From Bacteroidales bacterium (lineage in GTDB: Bacteria; Bacteroidota; Bacteroidia; Bacteroidales; UBA7960), in NCBI GenBank assembly GCA_003552075.1, contig PUOJ01000172.1, forward strand, positions 1-37,857: a stretch of DNA of 37,857 nucleotides, written 5' to 3'. Below the pieces are notes generated by a model that saw nothing but the letters and a program-made list of their open reading frames with translations, was not told the DNA's origin and ran no database searches. The translations under genes and the position numbers were made by a program. Every line of letters begins with the position of its first letter. The first letter of the stretch is position 1. Shown piece by piece: positions 7,300 to 25,150 of the stretch.

Positions 7300-7313
7300 T
7301 GATTCAGTATTTG

Positions 7314-7361
7314 TCAAAAAGTCGAAATGTCAGAAGGTTGAAATGTCGGGTCTTGAATGGG
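7314..7361 (-). repeat. Octamer array, family A (consensus CCTTTYGW on the sense strand), adaptor leader
   Basis: On the plus strand the units read TCAAAAAG, TCGAAATG, TCAGAAGG, TTGAAATG, TCGGGTCT, TGAATGGG, which is six degenerate 8-base units. On the sense strand of the adaptor gene this is the pyrimidine-rich CCTTTCGA-type unit. The array lies 15 bases upstream of the adaptor ATG, inside the inferred 5' leader. Confidence 0.6.
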
Positions 7362-7745: not shown

Positions 7746-8327
7746 GTGCAGCACAAAGACAAACTCAACATTCCGAACGCCCTGTCGTTTTATCGCCTGC
7801 TGGCGTTTCCCGTCATCCTCTACCTCGCCATAGCTGGTCATGCTCAAGCCTTTGCCGTGCTCATCGTGATCAACCTGATCACCGACGTGCTGGATGGCTT
7901 ACTGGCCAGGCTATTTAAGCAACAAACCGAATTTGGTGCCAAAATCGATTCCATCGCGGACATGGGCACTTATTTTCTTGTTTTCCTGGGTATTGGGCTT
8001 TTCAAGTGGGATGATTTTGCCCCGCACATCCTGAGTTTTGGTACGTTTATTGGGTTACTGATTGCCTCCCTCACCCTTTCGGTGATCAAATTCGGGAGGT
8101 TCCCGAGCCTGCACCTCTATTCTTGGAAAATTGGCGGTTACATCCAGGGCACCTTCTTCTTCATCTTATTTACTTTTGGATTTTTCACCCCTTTTTACTA
8201 TTTCATGATCATCTGGGGCATCCTGGCTTTCCTGGAGCACATCATCATCCAGCTGATCATCCCGGAGATGCGCTCGAATGCGAAGGGCCTGTATTGGGTA
8301 CTTAGGGAAGGAAGAAGTAGGAAGTAG
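7746..8327 (+). CDS. CDP-alcohol phosphatidyltransferase family protein
   Basis: Integral membrane enzyme family that transfers a CDP-activated phosphatidyl (or similar) group onto an alcohol such as glycerol phosphate, serine or inositol phosphate, releasing CMP. The diagnostic signature D-x2-DG-x2-AR-x8-G-x3-D-x3-D is complete, with D47, D50, G51, A54, R55, G64, D68 and D72. Length is 193 residues with several hydrophobic segments. I take the GTG at 7746 because no ATG lies before the first conserved region (LNIPNALSFYRLLAFP). The last codons and the TAG stop (8325-8327) lie inside a heptamer array. It is the first gene of a cassette with two further lipid-activation genes. The alcohol acceptor cannot be told from the sequence. 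Confidence 0.93.
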   Translation: MQHKDKLNIPNALSFYRLLAFPVILYLAIAGHAQAFAVLIVINLITDVLDGLLARLFKQQTEFGAKIDSIADMGTYFLVFLGIGLFKWDDFAPHILSFGTFIGLLIASLTLSVIKFGRFPSLHLYSWKIGGYIQGTFFFILFTFGFFTPFYYFMIIWGILAFLEHIIIQLIIPEMRSNAKGLYWVLREGRSRK

Positions 8328-8364
8328 GAAGTAAGAAGTAAGAAGTAAGCAGTAAGCAGCAGGA
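8316..8364 (+). repeat. Heptamer array, family C (AGTAAGA), over the stop codon at 8325-8327
   Basis: Seven 7-base units: AGTAGGA, AGTAGGA, AGTAAGA, AGTAAGA, AGTAAGC, AGTAAGC, AGCAGGA. The stop codon of the phosphatidyltransferase is part of the second unit, so the protein's last residues are repeat-encoded. The same family recurs at 18292-18333 in the same orientation relative to the flanking genes. Confidence 0.85.
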
Positions 8365-8483
8365 GTAATCCACAAATAAACACAAATGGTGCACAAATGC
8401 AAACAAATGCCTCAGGTAACTTCAAACTTAAAAGTTCAACCTTAATAAAAACCCATTGACCCCTTAAACCAACAACCTCCTAA
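8365..8483 (+). repeat. Degenerate low-complexity intergenic sequence
   Basis: Between arrays C and A the sequence holds several ACAAAT(G) words (CACAAAT, ACACAAATGG, GCACAAATG, AACAAATG) and then C/A-rich text without clear periodicity. No gene, terminator or promoter was recognised. The whole stretch 8316-8627 is therefore composite repeat DNA. Confidence 0.4.
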
Positions 8484-8627
8484 CTTAATGATTTATAGAC
8501 ACTTTGACGTTATGACCTTTCAACCTTGCGACTTTTAGACATTTTGTCCTTTCGTCCTTTTGTCCTTTTGTCCTTTTGTCTTTTTTCCTTTCGTCTTTTT
8601 GTCCTTTTGTCTTTTTGTCTTTGCTTT
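8484..8627 (+). repeat. Octamer array, family A (CCTTTYGW), directly upstream of the cdsA-like start
   Basis: Roughly 17 units of 8 bases run up to the ATG at 8628. The 3' part is nearly regular (CCTTTCGT, CCTTTTGT three times, CTTTTTGT and so on). The 5' part is degenerate (CACTTTGA, CGTTATGA, CCTTTCAA, CCTTGCGA, CTTTTAGA). One unit near 8585 seems to have lost a base. The downstream reading frame stays open back into the array without an ATG. Confidence 0.85.
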
Positions 8628-9353
8628 ATGGAACGCCTGATATACATCATCATCCTGATTTATTTTGTCCTGGGGGCCATGGCTTTTGCGTGGATCAGCA
8701 GAAACAAGCGCAGGGAGAGAAAGCGGGAGATCTGGGCCAAGTTTGGCACCTATTTTCTGATCATTCACGTGTTGTTTGGCAGCATTTATTTCGGGCCGCC
8801 TTATTTCAGCGTGGTTGCCTTGTTGCTGGTAGCTGCAGGTTACACGGAGCTCACGCGCGTGCATTTGCATCGTCCATTAAAAAGCAGCGGTTTTTTCCTG
8901 GCTGCCCTGGGGATATTCACCCTGCTGGCCCTGCCATTTATATCGTTCAGCTTCATGGCGAAGCCCTATTTGTACTTTGTATTTGTGGTGGTATCTGTAT
9001 TTGATGCGTTCAGCCAGATCAGCGGCCAGATCATGGGGGGTAAGCGCCTGATGCCATCTGTAAGTCCGAAGAAAACCATTTCTGGATTTATTGGCGGGAC
9101 GGCGCTGGCCGTAACAACTGCACTGCTGATCAGGGGCCTGATCGATGCTTCCTGGACACAGGCTTTGTTTTATTCGATTAATATCACTATCTTTGCATTA
9201 TTGGGGGATCTTTTGGCTTCTTATTTCAAGAGGCGACATGAGATAAAAGATTTCAGCAACCTGCTGCCCGGACACGGGGGGTTCCTCGACAGATTTGACA
9301 GCCTGATCCCTGGTGGTGCCGCCATGTTTATCATTAACATCATCCCATTATGA
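8628..9353 (+). CDS. Phosphatidate cytidylyltransferase (CDP-diglyceride synthase)-like protein
   Basis: Membrane enzyme family that makes CDP-diacylglycerol (or a related CDP-lipid) from phosphatidate and CTP. The 241 residues contain about six hydrophobic segments. The full CdsA signature is present at residues 198-224: S-x-F-K-R-R, then KD, then LLPGHGG and DRFD. SPKKTISGFIGG at 146-157 is the other conserved block. The ATG at 8628 is chosen because upstream codons are only octamer repeat. It overlaps the next gene by four bases (ATGA). With its neighbours it would supply the CDP-activated donor for the phosphatidyltransferase. A second, housekeeping cdsA may exist elsewhere in the genome, so I leave the gene symbol open. 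Confidence 0.9.
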   Translation: MERLIYIIILIYFVLGAMAFAWISRNKRRERKREIWAKFGTYFLIIHVLFGSIYFGPPYFSVVALLLVAAGYTELTRVHLHRPLKSSGFFLAALGIFTLLALPFISFSFMAKPYLYFVFVVVSVFDAFSQISGQIMGGKRLMPSVSPKKTISGFIGGTALAVTTALLIRGLIDASWTQALFYSINITIFALLGDLLASYFKRRHEIKDFSNLLPGHGGFLDRFDSLIPGGAAMFIINIIPL

Positions 9354-16965: not shown

Positions 16966-17056
16966 GACTGCCCCGAGAGGGATTATCAGGAGCGAGCTCA
17001 CCAATGACCGCCTGCAACAGGGCAGGGATTATCCGAAAGATTCATCCCGGTAAATC

Positions 17057-17671: not shown

Positions 17672-17713
17672 AAGCTTGTATTAGTTTGGAATGACAAAAA
17701 GATGAAAGCTTTT

Positions 17714-17748
17714 CCGTTGGCTGTTGGCTATTGGCTATTAGCTTTTGG
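17714..17748 (-). repeat. Heptamer array, family B, upstream of queD
   Basis: On the sense (minus) strand there are five units: CCAAAAG, CTAATAG, CCAATAG, CCAACAG, CCAACGG. The orientation relative to queD is the same as in the adaptor leader. It is complementary to the array at 17792-17819 and can form a long imperfect stem with it. Confidence 0.8.
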
Positions 17749-17791
17749 CAAACAGAGCAGGTGAATCAAAACAATCCGCAAAACTTTCTCG

Positions 17792-17819
17792 CCAACAGCC
17801 AAAAGCTAAAAGCCAACAG
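17792..17819 (+). repeat. Heptamer array, family B, inverted copy behind the TonB_C gene
   Basis: On the plus strand there are four units: CCAACAG, CCAAAAG, CTAAAAG, CCAACAG. It lies 19 bases past the stop of the gene at 17839 and is inverted relative to 17714-17748, with 43 bases between them. A transcript reading through would fold into a large hairpin, but no T-tract follows. Confidence 0.8.
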
Positions 17820-17838
17820 CCTAACTGCTTCTCCGAAA

Positions 17839-18291
17839 TCAGTACTTAATGGTGTACGTATAAACGGCCGGCTTTTTATCCTGCTTTGAAGCCTCTTTGG
17901 TTTCCACTTGCTTACCGGTGGCTTTCTTTGCCGCATCCGCCGGCTTATAGGTCATGGATATCTTTTGTTTCTTTTGCTTTTTGATCCTGAAAGGGATTTT
18001 GACTTTATTGTTGGTGGTCACGCGCACCCCCCGGTTTTTTACCGATTGGTACTGCAACATCTTTACCAGCCGGATGGCTTCTTCGTCGCAGCCATGGCCG
18101 ATTCCCTTATGTATCTCGGGTTGTATGACCTCCCCTTTTCCCGTTACCTTAAACTTCACGATGACATCCCCCTCCACTCCCTTTTCCAGGGCTTCCTCCG
18201 GGTACACCAGGTTGTCCTTTATGAACTCCTTAAGCAACTCGCGCCCCCCGTCGAGGTGCGGCAATTTCAGGAACTTCTTCTCTCTTTTCAT
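17839..18291 (-). CDS. TonB C-terminal-domain protein lacking a membrane anchor
   Basis: The 150 residues hold one TonB_C-like domain at about 15-103: LVYPEEALEKGVEGDVIVKF, then VTGKGEVIQPEI, then GCDEEAIRLVKMLQ. In ordinary TonB this domain contacts outer-membrane receptors. Here there is no N-terminal membrane helix, no signal peptide and no proline-rich spacer. The protein starts MKREKKFLKLPHLDGG and ends in a Lys-rich tail. It may be a truncated or specialised TonB, or its start may lie elsewhere, but the heptamer array directly upstream offers no other start. No ExbB or ExbD gene is near. Its stop is followed by a family B array. Confidence 0.8.
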   Translation of the reverse strand: MKREKKFLKLPHLDGGRELLKEFIKDNLVYPEEALEKGVEGDVIVKFKVTGKGEVIQPEIHKGIGHGCDEEAIRLVKMLQYQSVKNRGVRVTTNNKVKIPFRIKKQKKQKISMTYKPADAAKKATGKQVETKEASKQDKKPAVYTYTIKY

Positions 18292-18333
18292 TACTTCTTA
18301 CTTCTTACTGCCTACTTCTTACTTCTTACTTCC
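18292..18333 (-). repeat. Heptamer array, family C (AGAAGTA), abutting the ATG at 18291
   Basis: Six 7-base units on the sense strand run directly into the start codon with no spacer: GGAAGTA, AGAAGTA, AGAAGTA, GGCAGTA, AGAAGTA, AGAAGTA, then ATG. They replace any conventional ribosome binding site. Being purine-rich on the sense strand, they may themselves serve initiation. Confidence 0.9.
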
Positions 18334-18348
18334 TCCCAGCCAGGCAAC

Positions 18349-19050
18349 CTAAAGCGGCTCAGTAAGGTCAAAATCAACCCGGAGACGCTTCTCCCCATCC
18401 CGCTCCAGCCGGTAGGTAAACGTGGTCATGGCCTCATCCAGGCGAATGGTCCACACGTTGCCTTCTCCCCCATCGATCAATTCTGCAGTAAAATCATCCG
18501 CATGAAAATGCTGTTCAAATGCCGTTCCGGCATCATCGGCATAGCCTCCATACAGGCTCTCTTCTTCGGGGGTCCCATCGGGGTAACGATGGTCGTGACG
18601 CAATCGCAGCTGGCCTTCTTCCACCAGGAACATCCAGGTACGCGACTCGTCATCACCTACACGGAATGGGATCAGTATGCGGTCTTCCTCACATACGTCC
18701 ACGTGCATCACCATCTCATAGTCTTCCCAGCCTGAGGCGTGGTGGCTGCGGTAGATCTGCTCGCCTTCAAAAGACTGACCACACAAGCTGGCCAGGTTGT
18801 TAAAAAATTCCTGGTGCGTTTCCGAGACCAGCAAGCCCCTTGCCGGGTCATAAGGTGTTTCTTCTACAAGTACGTCTGTGGGTTCATCCACATCGCGTGC
18901 AGGCTCGTGCCTGGGGCCGCAGGCCGCCATCACCATCATGGCCACCAGTCCGCTGCAAATGATCAGTGTTTTTTTCGTAATGTAAAAAAGTTTAAATGTC
19001 GAAAGGACAAAAGGACAAAAGGACAAAAGGTCGAAAGATCGAAAGGTCAT
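18349..19050 (-). CDS. Putative lipoprotein (paralogue of 13765-14379) with repeat-encoded or non-ATG start
   Basis: The mature part shows the same blocks as its paralogue: NLASLCGQSF, CEEDRILIPF, RTWMFLVEEG, RHDHRYPDGTPEE, YGGYADD and DFDLTEPL. Before it is a lipoprotein signal peptide, KKTLIICSGLVAMMVMAAC. No ATG precedes that signal peptide. The codon where Met is expected (18978-18976) is ACG, preceded by ATT. The only in-frame ATG (19050) lies at the outer end of an octamer array, so initiation there adds about 37 repeat-encoded residues. True initiation is therefore uncertain: ATG 19050 through the array, or a rare ATT/ACG start near 18980. Function unknown. A spacer rich in Asp, Glu and Pro follows the lipobox. 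Confidence 0.75.
   Translation of the reverse strand: MTFRSFDLLSFCPFVLSTFKLFYITKKTLIICSGLVAMMVMAACGPRHEPARDVDEPTDVLVEETPYDPARGLLVSETHQEFFNNLASLCGQSFEGEQIYRSHHASGWEDYEMVMHVDVCEEDRILIPFRVGDDESRTWMFLVEEGQLRLRHDHRYPDGTPEEESLYGGYADDAGTAFEQHFHADDFTAELIDGGEGNVWTIRLDEAMTTFTYRLERDGEKRLRVDFDLTEPL
18995..19050 (-). repeat. Octamer array, family A (CCTTTYGW), at the lipoprotein start
   Basis: On the sense strand, after ATGA, the units are CCTTTCGA, TCTTTCGA, CCTTTTGT three times, CCTTTCGA and CATTTAAA. These are seven 8-base units, mostly regular. The array separates the only in-frame ATG from the signal peptide. Confidence 0.9.
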
Positions 19051-19160
19051 GGAATGCGATGGCTTCAAGTTGATTTGTAAAAACCCCAAATCCCGAATCG
19101 TAACCTCTCGGGACTTCGCTTGCGCTCAGCCTCAAACCCAGTAACCCCTTATCTTCCTTG

Positions 19161-23513: not shown

Positions 23514-23594
23514 AATCATTCATCAAAAATAACATTTTACGCTGATAGCTTGGCATGGACCCGGGCCTGGTTTTTCTTTCCAGTTTAAATTGCG

Positions 23595-23602
23595 TATTTT
23601 TG
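23595..23602 (+). promoter_or_regulatory. -7 element of the gldE promoter
   Basis: TATTTTTG is followed by CA, with a T-run (23571-23575) about 20 bases upstream in the -33 position. If used, transcription starts near 23608. That is downstream of the ATG at 23555, which would leave the TTG at 23621 as the start codon of gldE. Confidence 0.5.
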
Positions 23603-23620
23603 CAACAAATTGAGAAGACC

Positions 23621-24949
23621 TTGGAAGAATCACCCGACGCGTACTCGTGTTTCATAAGCCTTTGGAGCACCGGATTGCCCGCCCTATCCACAGAGACTTT
23701 CTTTGGCCTTATCGCCATGTTGTTCCTGTTGTTTTTTTCCGCCATGGTGTCCGGGTCTGAAATTGCCTTCTTTTCGCTTACCCACAACCACATCGACCAT
23801 TTTAAGAAGCGACAGAAGCCTGCTGACAAGAAGATCCTTTCGCTGCTTGAAAAGCCGAATCGTCTGCTCGCCACCATCTTGATTGCCAACAATGTGATCA
23901 ACATCGCGATCATCGTGCTCTCCACCCTGGTTTTCCGTAGCTTTTATGAGATGCAGCTTCACCCGGTGGTGGCTTTCCTGTTGCAGGTTGCCCTGGTCAC
24001 CTTTCTCATCCTGCTTTTCGCAGAAGTCTTGCCCAAGGTGTATGCTTCCCGTTATCCCGAGAAGTTTTCCAGCACCATGTCAGGGCCACTGCTGATCCTC
24101 AGGAGCGCTTTCAACCCCCTGAGCGCGCTGCTTGTAAAAACCACCCGCCTGATTGACAAGCGGATGGAGAAAAAGCGGCCAAACCTGAGCATGGACGAAC
24201 TGTCGCATGCGCTTGAGATCACGGTGGATGAGCACACCGATGAAGAAGACAAAAAGCTGTTACGCGGAATCATCAGCTTTGGCAACACCTATGTGCGTGA
24301 GATCATGAAGTCGCGCGTAGATGTGGTGGCTGTGGAGTATCACACACCATTTCAAAAACTGATCAAAACCATTCAGAAGGCCGGTTACAGCCGTATCCCG
24401 GTATATCATAACAGTTTCGACAACGTGGCTGGCATTTTATACATCAAAGACCTGCTGCCACACCTTAACAAAGACGAAGATTTTCATTGGCAGGAGTTCC
24501 TGCGGGATGCCTTTTTCGTTCCGGAGAGCAAACGGATCAACGACCTTCTTAAGGAGTTTCAGGAGAAAAAGATTCACCTGGCCATTGTGGTGGATGAATA
24601 TGGTGGCACATCAGGCCTGGTCACCCTTGAAGACATCCTGGAGGAGATCGTTGGCGAGATCAATGATGAGTTTGACATGGTAGAAGCCACCTATTCGAGG
24701 ATAGACGCCAACACCTTCATTTTTGAAGGCAAAACCCTGCTCAAGGATTTTTGCAAGATCGTGGGTGCCGAAGATGATGTGTTCAATGAGGTGAAGGGTG
24801 AGGCCGATACACTTGCGGGGCTTATCCTGGAGATCAAACAGGAGATTCCTTACAGGGGGGCCAAAATAAAATACAAGCAATTTGAGTTTGAAATAGAAGG
24901 GGTGGATAAAAGACGTATCAAGCGGATCAAGGTGAAGGTAAGAAAATGA
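23621..24949 (+). CDS. gldE: Gliding motility-associated protein GldE (CNNM/CorC-like membrane protein)
   Basis: The layout is a DUF21 membrane domain (start GLIAMLFLLFFSAMVSGSEIAFFSLT), then a CBS-domain pair (about YVREIMKSRVDVVAV through HLAIVVDEYGGTSGLVTLED) and a CorC/HlyC C-terminal domain. GldE works with GldD in gliding or type IX secretion-related functions in Bacteroidota. I place the start at TTG 23621, giving about 442 residues, because a good -7 element lies at 23595-23602. The in-frame ATG at 23555 (MDPGLVFL) gives 464 residues and cannot be excluded. The TGA stop is inside a heptamer repeat. gldD follows in the same direction. Confidence 0.9.
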   Translation: MEESPDAYSCFISLWSTGLPALSTETFFGLIAMLFLLFFSAMVSGSEIAFFSLTHNHIDHFKKRQKPADKKILSLLEKPNRLLATILIANNVINIAIIVLSTLVFRSFYEMQLHPVVAFLLQVALVTFLILLFAEVLPKVYASRYPEKFSSTMSGPLLILRSAFNPLSALLVKTTRLIDKRMEKKRPNLSMDELSHALEITVDEHTDEEDKKLLRGIISFGNTYVREIMKSRVDVVAVEYHTPFQKLIKTIQKAGYSRIPVYHNSFDNVAGILYIKDLLPHLNKDEDFHWQEFLRDAFFVPESKRINDLLKEFQEKKIHLAIVVDEYGGTSGLVTLEDILEEIVGEINDEFDMVEATYSRIDANTFIFEGKTLLKDFCKIVGAEDDVFNEVKGEADTLAGLILEIKQEIPYRGAKIKYKQFEFEIEGVDKRRIKRIKVKVRK

Positions 24950-24973
24950 AAAATGAAAAATGAAAAATGAAAA
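24946..24973 (+). repeat. Heptamer array, family D (ATGAAAA), over the gldE stop codon
   Basis: Four exact ATGAAAA units. The TGA of the first unit is the gldE stop (24947-24949). Each unit also supplies an ATG, so a slip of the array would change the reading frame right at the stop. The remaining gldE-gldD gap (24974-25150) shows no other element. Confidence 0.9.
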
Positions 24974-25150
24974 ATCACCCAGCTCCAGAACGATGTCTCG
25001 TCCTGAAATAGGTTTACACTTTTTGTAAATAAAGATCAGGATTATGAGACCAGCCCCTTGCTTTGTTGAAAGGAGTTGTTGGGATATCACCTCGACTGCG
25101 ATTCGAAACACAAATACTTAAAACAGAAGAAAGACAAAGGAAATAGCCTG

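Follow-up and report, generated by a model that had tools for sequence, protein, structure and literature searches.

Tandem heptamer and octamer arrays at gene boundaries of a Bacteroidales genome, with a composite gap upstream of a cdsA-like gene

Dispersed tandem heptamers are known from Cyanobacteria as STRRs. The arrays described here, from a Bacteroidales genome of the lineage UBA7960, resemble these repeats as dispersed tandem heptamers but differ from them in units and host. Heptamers are the commonest class of long repeat units in most genomes, and slippage has been proposed for their formation (LSSRs; Mrazek 2007, as summarized by MacGregor 2015, PMC4679880, and Rehm 2015, PMC4692102; these and all further papers are cited from excerpts). 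Longer tandem repeats are generally represented at normal levels, and a strong intergenic excess of units of 6-11 nt has been described for few genomes (Mrazek and Huang 2014, PMC4060949). LSSRs (5-11 nt) and the arrays considered here are alike in the heptamer class and in the proposed slippage; the placement and strand of arrays with respect to stop codons and the order of octamers in two blocks, as reported below, are not described for LSSRs in the summaries by which they are known here.

The nearest published case is that of the TAACTGA repeats, which occur in marine Beggiatoaceae, some Cyanobacteria and five Bacteroidetes and lie mostly before start codons in the main genome of that study (MacGregor 2015, PMC4679880). 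The claim in the initial annotation, that no described equivalent with this set of units is known in Bacteroidota, was therefore too strong for heptamer arrays as such. Going by the excerpts of that study, the likeness extends to the intergenic position of heptamers, a bias in orientation at gene boundaries, sense-strand stops in each of the three frames, overlap with stop codons in some cases and a sporadic phylogenetic distribution. In contrast to TAACTGA, the units in the present genome are GAAGTAR and GACNTTTN/GTCYTTTT, the GAAGTAR arrays lie mostly after stop codons while only octamers precede starts, and several families with differing boundary preferences, octamers and composite gaps are found. 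GGGAATC-type heptamers of Xanthomonas and Nostoc are likewise intergenic and vary in length and sequence between close relatives, but their units form G-quadruplexes (Rehm 2015, PMC4692102), whereas no unit described here contains a run of three Gs. Many sites of one genome are also occupied by (GATAGRA)n and further satellites derived from heptamers, and a boundary rule is not described in the excerpts of the respective paper (PMC6749651).

The positions of heptamers, known as an over-represented class, are described per unit and per genome in this literature as excerpted. The array class as such is known (STRR/LSSR). For the tendency of GAAGTAA arrays to follow stop codons, and for the octamer family, a partial literature search found no published match, which is weak evidence for their novelty.

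Composition of the gap

The window, i.e. the whole analyzed stretch of 37,857 nt (assembly GCA_003552075.1, contig PUOJ01000172.1), contains a phosphatidyltransferase gene and a cdsA-like gene with a spacer of 300 nt between them. The following features belong to this part of the window (7746-9353):

7746-8327, + strand: upstream gene of the CDP-alcohol phosphatidyltransferase family (PF01066, Pfam E-value 3.3e-19; open reading frame)
8306-8368, + strand: heptamer array of family A (GAAGTAR), overlapping the 3' end of the phosphatidyltransferase reading frame (TRF, sequence reading, open reading frame)
8367-8388, + strand: dispersed linker AATCCACAAATAAACACAAATG (23 copies in the genome at no more than 2 mismatches, reversed control 0)
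8498-8545, + strand: 5' block of the octamer array, six units of the GACNTTTN type, of which three are imperfect (sequence reading)
8546-8624, + strand: 3' block of the octamer array, ten GTCYTTTT-type units, one of them of 7 nt at 8586-8592 (sequence reading, TRF)
8628-9353, + strand: downstream cytidylyltransferase gene, cdsA-like (PF01148, Pfam E-value 2e-42)

TRF reports the heptamers at 8307-8356 (period 7, 7.1 copies, 90% match) and, as period 14, at 8306-8368. As had been noticed in the initial annotation, they begin inside the phosphatidyltransferase gene and include its stop codon; the TAG at 8325-8327 lies within the second GAAGTAG unit, and the array's first TAG is not in frame. For the octamers, TRF gives 8542-8619 (period 8, 9.9 copies), or 8524-8622 over all rows. 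They had been described as about 17 units reaching up to the base before the ATG. The array indeed lies just 5' of the start codon, but read by eye it consists of 16 units at 8498-8624 and ends three bases before the ATG at 8628. Its units had also been seen as regular at the 3' end and degenerate at the 5' end; the direction is right and the 5' units are less uniform, but they mostly represent a second recurring unit type, GACNTTTN. Both arrays are real according to TRF and by eye, but a gap made almost entirely of 7-mers and 8-mers is an overstatement, because the two arrays cover about 180 of 312 bases and the middle part (about 8369-8497, ~130 nt) consists of neither. The linker is located at the start of this middle part and is followed by decamer-like repeats, ACACAAATG/ACAAATGC.

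The same succession of heptamers, linker and octamers is found at a second locus (L049). The whole gap could be regarded as one copy of an intergenic element that is composite and mobile, consisting of heptamers, linker, middle part and octamers and spread by transposition or recombination. The 23 copies of the linker, a common sequence upstream of octamers and their common two-block order point in this direction, as do the five gaps that hold both an array of family A and one of the octamer family C, among 15 period-7 arrays of family A, where order and strand are shared. However, a C array is missing from the gap in 10 of the 15 cases of A arrays, linkers vary and module content is variable, while the order of A before C already follows from the boundary preference of each module. 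Exact sharing of 16-mers, considered as proof of a dispersed element, was rejected as such: 16-mers common to at least three intergenic pieces cover 1605 of 106816 bp with tandem repeats masked. A mobile composite element is thus decidedly improbable. The gap is probably one instance of arrays of the STRR/LSSR class that occur throughout the genome, are born by slippage and expand at gene boundaries in a preferred orientation.

Abundance, position and orientation of arrays in the genome

Searching the 2.39-Mb assembly yielded 127 matches of the heptamer pattern GAAGTANGAAGTANGAAGTA and 2 of the reversed pattern; the octamer pattern has 69 matches and its control 0. Arrays were also located by TRF (score of at least 45) in a sample of 61 stretches from 61 of the 198 contigs, comprising 651,461 bases including the window. 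The sample contains 44 period-7 arrays (38 intergenic, 6 across a gene edge, 0 genic), 35 period-8 arrays (32 intergenic, 3 genic) and 12 period-6 arrays (8 intergenic, 1 mixed, 3 genic). Thus, 76 of 79 arrays of periods 7 and 8 lie outside called genes, although 83% of these 651 kb are coding according to our own caller; genes were called by simple codon scores or as longest open frames instead of by a standard annotator, and start codons are therefore uncertain. Genic arrays are rare, and an equal frequency of arrays inside genes, which would have spoken against the initial annotation, does not apply. Five dinucleotide shuffles of 365 intergenic pieces (105 kb) contained no TRF array of period 6, 7 or 8, whereas the same pieces unshuffled contain 8, 40 and 32, respectively. 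Tandem units of 5-11 nt beyond chance at many, mainly intergenic loci, as in STRRs and LSSRs, were hence found in this genome, and the kinship with heptameric STRR-like repeats that had been suggested is supported by the location of the arrays outside genes.

The position of arrays relative to start and stop codons was evaluated by sorting families automatically by unit sequence and permuting positions within their own gaps with random orientation (2000 permutations). A stop codon was counted on the 5' side within -30 to 25 nt and a start codon on the 3' side within -5 to 40 nt; two C and two D arrays lying inside genes were left out. Heptamers of family A are located at stop codons and octamers of family C before start codons, both far above the permutations. 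The GAAGTAR arrays are purine-rich, carry stops in three frames and lie in sense orientation on or just after stop codons: of 22 arrays, 14 have a stop on their 5' side (expected 3.6; 0 of 2000 permutations as high), one has a stop on its 3' side, and two have a start codon on their 3' side (expected 2.2). These 22 arrays comprise 15 period-7 arrays of the sample, six from pattern-match loci and the period-16 row L045, which is not a true member; neither is the period-18 array at 17052 of the window in family B, and both were kept and scored as misses. The octamers of family C are pyrimidine-rich, with the T-rich strand as sense, and lie just before start codons: of 32 arrays, 17 have a start on their 3' side (expected 3.05; 0 of 2000) and none has one on its 5' side. 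The second octamer family F, AGCACATT, is represented by two arrays (L116, 168-230, and L136, 15516-15564), both of them 1-2 nt before starts (17 of 2000). Among the other heptamers, five of six arrays of family E (sense unit TTTTTCA, so TGAAAAA after stops) follow the preference (3 of 2000), while it is weaker in family D (4/15; 49 of 2000) and in family B (TTGGCTA; 55 of 2000), which follows stop codons in sense in 8 of 38 arrays versus one.

The units GAAGTAA, TTAGTAA, GTAGTAG, AATGATG, TAACTGA and TGAAAAA have stops in all three sense frames, whereas TTGGCTA has stops on the antisense strand only. A universal law, by which the stop-bearing strand determines the orientation, was rejected because family B lies in sense orientation after stop codons despite its antisense stops.

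The location of octamers in sense before starts, with 17 of 32 arrays and none of the 2000 permutations as high, is what would be expected if they were candidate regulatory 5' leaders or rheostats. T-rich octamers might bind an S1-like or Csp-like protein and replace a Shine-Dalgarno sequence, and their copy number might tune expression of cdsA and other genes. Post-transcriptional regulators of such kinds have been proposed for TAACTGA (MacGregor 2015, PMC4679880, in the excerpts used), and an A+T-rich stretch is often seen by eye between the octamer array and the ATG. However, 16 of the 20 orthologous gaps in the genus are without array (see below), and six of 32 octamer arrays are followed on the 3' side by the stop codon of an opposite gene (expected 2.95; this number was reached in 114 of 2000 permutations). 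In its structure, the predicted leader RNA does not differ from its shuffles (z -0.25), which is neutral. A regulatory role of this kind is unlikely, and expansion at gene boundaries is preferred also for the octamers.

Further arrays of the window are located as follows:

7312-7347, - strand: octamer array of the GAC type, followed after 12 nt by a - strand start (TRF, period 16)
18291-18334, - strand: second heptamer array of family A, 14 nt past a stop and reaching the ATG of the next gene (TRF)
18994-19049, - strand: octamer array at the 5' end of ORF 18349-19089 (-) (TRF)
24943-24975, + strand: heptamer array of family E, AAAATGA, overlapping the stop of ORF 23555-24949 (TRF, open reading frame)

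In the array at 18291-18334, the last unit is where the ATG of the next - strand gene arises. The TTG that opens ORF 18349-19089 (-) lies within its octamer array or upstream of it, and a lipoprotein-like signal, KKTLIICSGLVAMMVMAACG (by eye), begins past this array near an ATT codon; the start of this ORF is therefore doubtful.

TTGGCTA/GCCAAAA heptamer arrays occur as an inverted pair at 17717-17749 and 17791-17821 of the window, between two genes, and 17700-17840 is predicted to form a long hairpin (-45.6 kcal/mol, z -4.66); nine more inverted pairs of the TTGGCTA family no more than 120 nt apart are present in the sample. Contigs C10, C78 and C84 have heptamer arrays no more than 100 bases from an end, which suggests that the assembly was broken by arrays and that true copy numbers may be larger. 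One stretch of the sample (L044, contig C135) contains several GC-rich repeats of long period (40, 41, 61, 63, 65 and 70 nt), unlike the other stretches, and this contig is possibly foreign or contaminating DNA.

Unit order in octamers and distribution among relatives and phyla

Within octamer arrays, two types of units follow each other in a preferred order. The fraction of GTC units (versus GAC) by array fifths is 0.11, 0.39, 0.68, 0.80 and 0.73 in 27 chained arrays, which include one chain twice (L135). Among the matches listed for the own genome, on contigs C3-C97, GAC precedes GTC toward the 3' side in 15 of 16 neighbouring blocks, and the blocks of the exception are ~50 nt apart. The GTC units of an array are also more alike (0.825) than the GAC units (0.718; p 1.2e-5 by Mann-Whitney test on 21 and 25 arrays). 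Arrays of the GAC type are present in 9 of 21 genomes of the genus; matches of the GTC type number 144 in the own genome and 439 in G005, and no further genome has more than 5. In the simplest reading of these sequences, the GAC block of the octamers is the older one, and the GTC block is younger and grew beside the start codon, since GTC is nearly confined to two genomes, start-proximal and more uniform. The claim that arrays grow near the start and decay away from it thereby survives for the octamers in a modified form, as GTC versus GAC, but the heptamers have no decay gradient. A candidate gradient, in which the identity of adjacent heptamer units fell from 0.91 to 0.77, was rejected because a comparison of halves did not confirm it.

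The orthologous gap was compared in 20 of the 21 genus genomes including the own one, as the assembly of G003 has no ortholog; absence of arrays was judged by eye. The own gap of 300 nt is the longest. In G007, a gap of 80 nt contains three degenerate heptamers on the stop codon and a short GAC-type octamer array reaching the ATG. In G018 (95 nt; locus L060) and G004 (160 nt; locus L072), another heptamer, TTAGTAA, lies on the same phosphatidyltransferase stop, which would be either unit turnover or independent origin at one site. The gap of G005, the closest relative according to the phosphatidyltransferase protein (76%), has 89 nt and neither array. In the other 15 genomes no array was seen by eye in gaps of about 7-133 nt (31 nt in G006); the starts in G015, G008 and G011 are uncertain. 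Altogether, 16 of 20 orthologous gaps are without array, and the presence of an array at this gap is thus not conserved. The C-terminal tails of the phosphatidyltransferase orthologs vary freely, from 3 to 14 residues past a YWVL motif in most.

The relatives also differ in array content at large: a sample of G018 (184 kb) contains six period-7 arrays, all of them TTAGTAA, and one period-8 array, a sample of G005 (148 kb) contains 3, 6 and 2 arrays of periods 7, 8 and 6, and a sample of G002 (290 kb) no period-7 and two period-8 arrays. Loss of mismatch repair was rejected as cause of array abundance: mutS1 has matches in 21 of 21 genus genomes, above the cut-off in 18, and the own copy is above the cut-off though cut by a contig end.

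Four KWAGTAR units in tandem are present in 20 of 395 genomes drawn from the phylum, the own genome included. The octamer pattern is found in the own genome and absent from the 394 others of this set, and has been seen only in this genus. GAAGTAA, in contrast, is a unit shared beyond Bacteroidota: exact (GAAGTAA)x4 occurs on at least 111 named contig stretches (112 arrays) in many phyla. The matches listed come from Cyanobacteria, Patescibacteria, Bacteroidota, Vibrionaceae, Planctomycetota, Nitrospinota, Chloroflexota and others, with taxon groups assigned from record titles. The position of these arrays was evaluated with stops within -30 to 40 nt of the array and ORFs of at least 120 amino acids. 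In the first 80 listed loci (81 arrays), a stop lies on the 5' side in 33 and on the 3' side in 3 cases; 31 further listed loci, previously unused, gave 11 versus 2 (p 0.02). All 111 listed loci (112 arrays) together gave 44 versus 5, a count that includes several contigs of the same genomes (Okeania, Richelia and Mastigocoleus among them) without thinning. Since a sense heptamer array ends any sense frame entering it, stops inside the array are favoured in such counts; among the matches listed, stops 0-40 nt outside the array alone gave 23 versus 3. Fifteen (GAAGTAA)x4 arrays among the matches listed lie in an antisense ORF, and one such ORF ends within 40 nt of the array.

In sense orientation, GAAGTAA thus tends to come after stop codons in Bacteroidota (16 versus 2, of 31 arrays), in Patescibacteria (4 versus 0, of 10) and in the other phyla together (18 versus 1, of 41), and weakly in Cyanobacteria (6 versus 2, of 30), all among the matches listed. 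KWAGTAR arrays in other genomes of the phylum have a stop on the 5' side in 8 cases and on the 3' side in one, of 19, and the TTAGTAR arrays of the G018 stretches and locus L060 in 5 versus 0, of 5. RATGAWK arrays gave 10 versus 2, of 28, but only 4 versus 2 for stops outside the array. As a separate observation, AATGATG/AATGAAG heptamer arrays (L350-L379) occur in 27 of the 395 genomes of the phylum, the own genome not among them, and lean 10 versus 2.

With a period of 7 giving stops in three frames, such heptamers might act as fail-safe translation terminators against read-through and frameshifts. Six of the heptamer units stop all sense frames, and GAAGTAA (44 versus 5 among the matches listed), KWAGTAR and, less so for outside stops, RATGAWK are found in sense after stop codons. 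On the other hand, no selection for additional stop codons was found in eubacteria (Ho and Hurst 2019, PMC6764699, as excerpted), and family B (TTGGCTA) goes against this function. Intragenic sense arrays would be purged anyway, and part of the pattern thus arises without any function. A role in termination is therefore very improbable, and slippage with expansion at gene boundaries is favoured for these heptamers as well.

Formation of the arrays and its meaning

Position, orientation, unit order and distribution of the arrays can be read directly from the genomes. According to the preferred reading, arrays would be born and enlarged by slipped-strand duplication of short sequences at gene boundaries, with changes in copy number, and selection would clear them from coding DNA. 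A sense heptamer array might stand in for a dispensable C-terminal tail, and would be tolerated there because the array supplies its own stop. Composite gaps would accumulate with time, and linkers would be copied between loci by recombination. The octamers seem to grow mainly on the start-proximal side, where the derived and most uniform GTC units are located. For the present locus the outcome would be a spacer of 300 nt where relatives have about 7-160 nt; should the octamers be transcribed, cdsA would also be preceded by a T-rich leader. The data can be explained without assigning a specific function to the array.

Some observations do not fit easily with this reading. The abutment on gene boundaries, the preferred orientation and the shared order of GAC before GTC are not predicted by slippage alone, and the shared block order and the linkers imply that sequence was copied from locus to locus. 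Stops 0-40 nt outside the array are not clearly in register with it (8 of 31 cases, expected 4.4), so that the stop codon is at most a candidate seed; of the stops overlapping the array, 16 of 25 are in register, which is partly forced. Family B, with antisense-only stops, nevertheless follows stops in sense (8/38 versus 1), the heptamers lack a decay gradient and the rule is weak in Cyanobacteria. Furthermore, mismatch repair is present, so that the abundance does not result from MutS loss.

Alternatively, a boundary-directed process acting across many phyla might lay arrays at gene ends and starts. The boundary would set strand and unit, with purine-rich, stop-bearing heptamers running from stop codons and, within the genus, octamers rich in pyrimidines that extend up to start codons, where new units would be added. 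Such a process is quite unlikely; if it exists, the birth of arrays would be coupled to boundaries of translation or transcription instead of being random slippage filtered by selection.

A practical consequence concerns annotation, as a gene touched by a sense heptamer array can have its C-terminus determined by this array. With the GAAGTAA stop rule and the apparent time order in the octamers, the questions of why heptamers are used and why they are located there become countable in any genome and accessible to laboratory tests.
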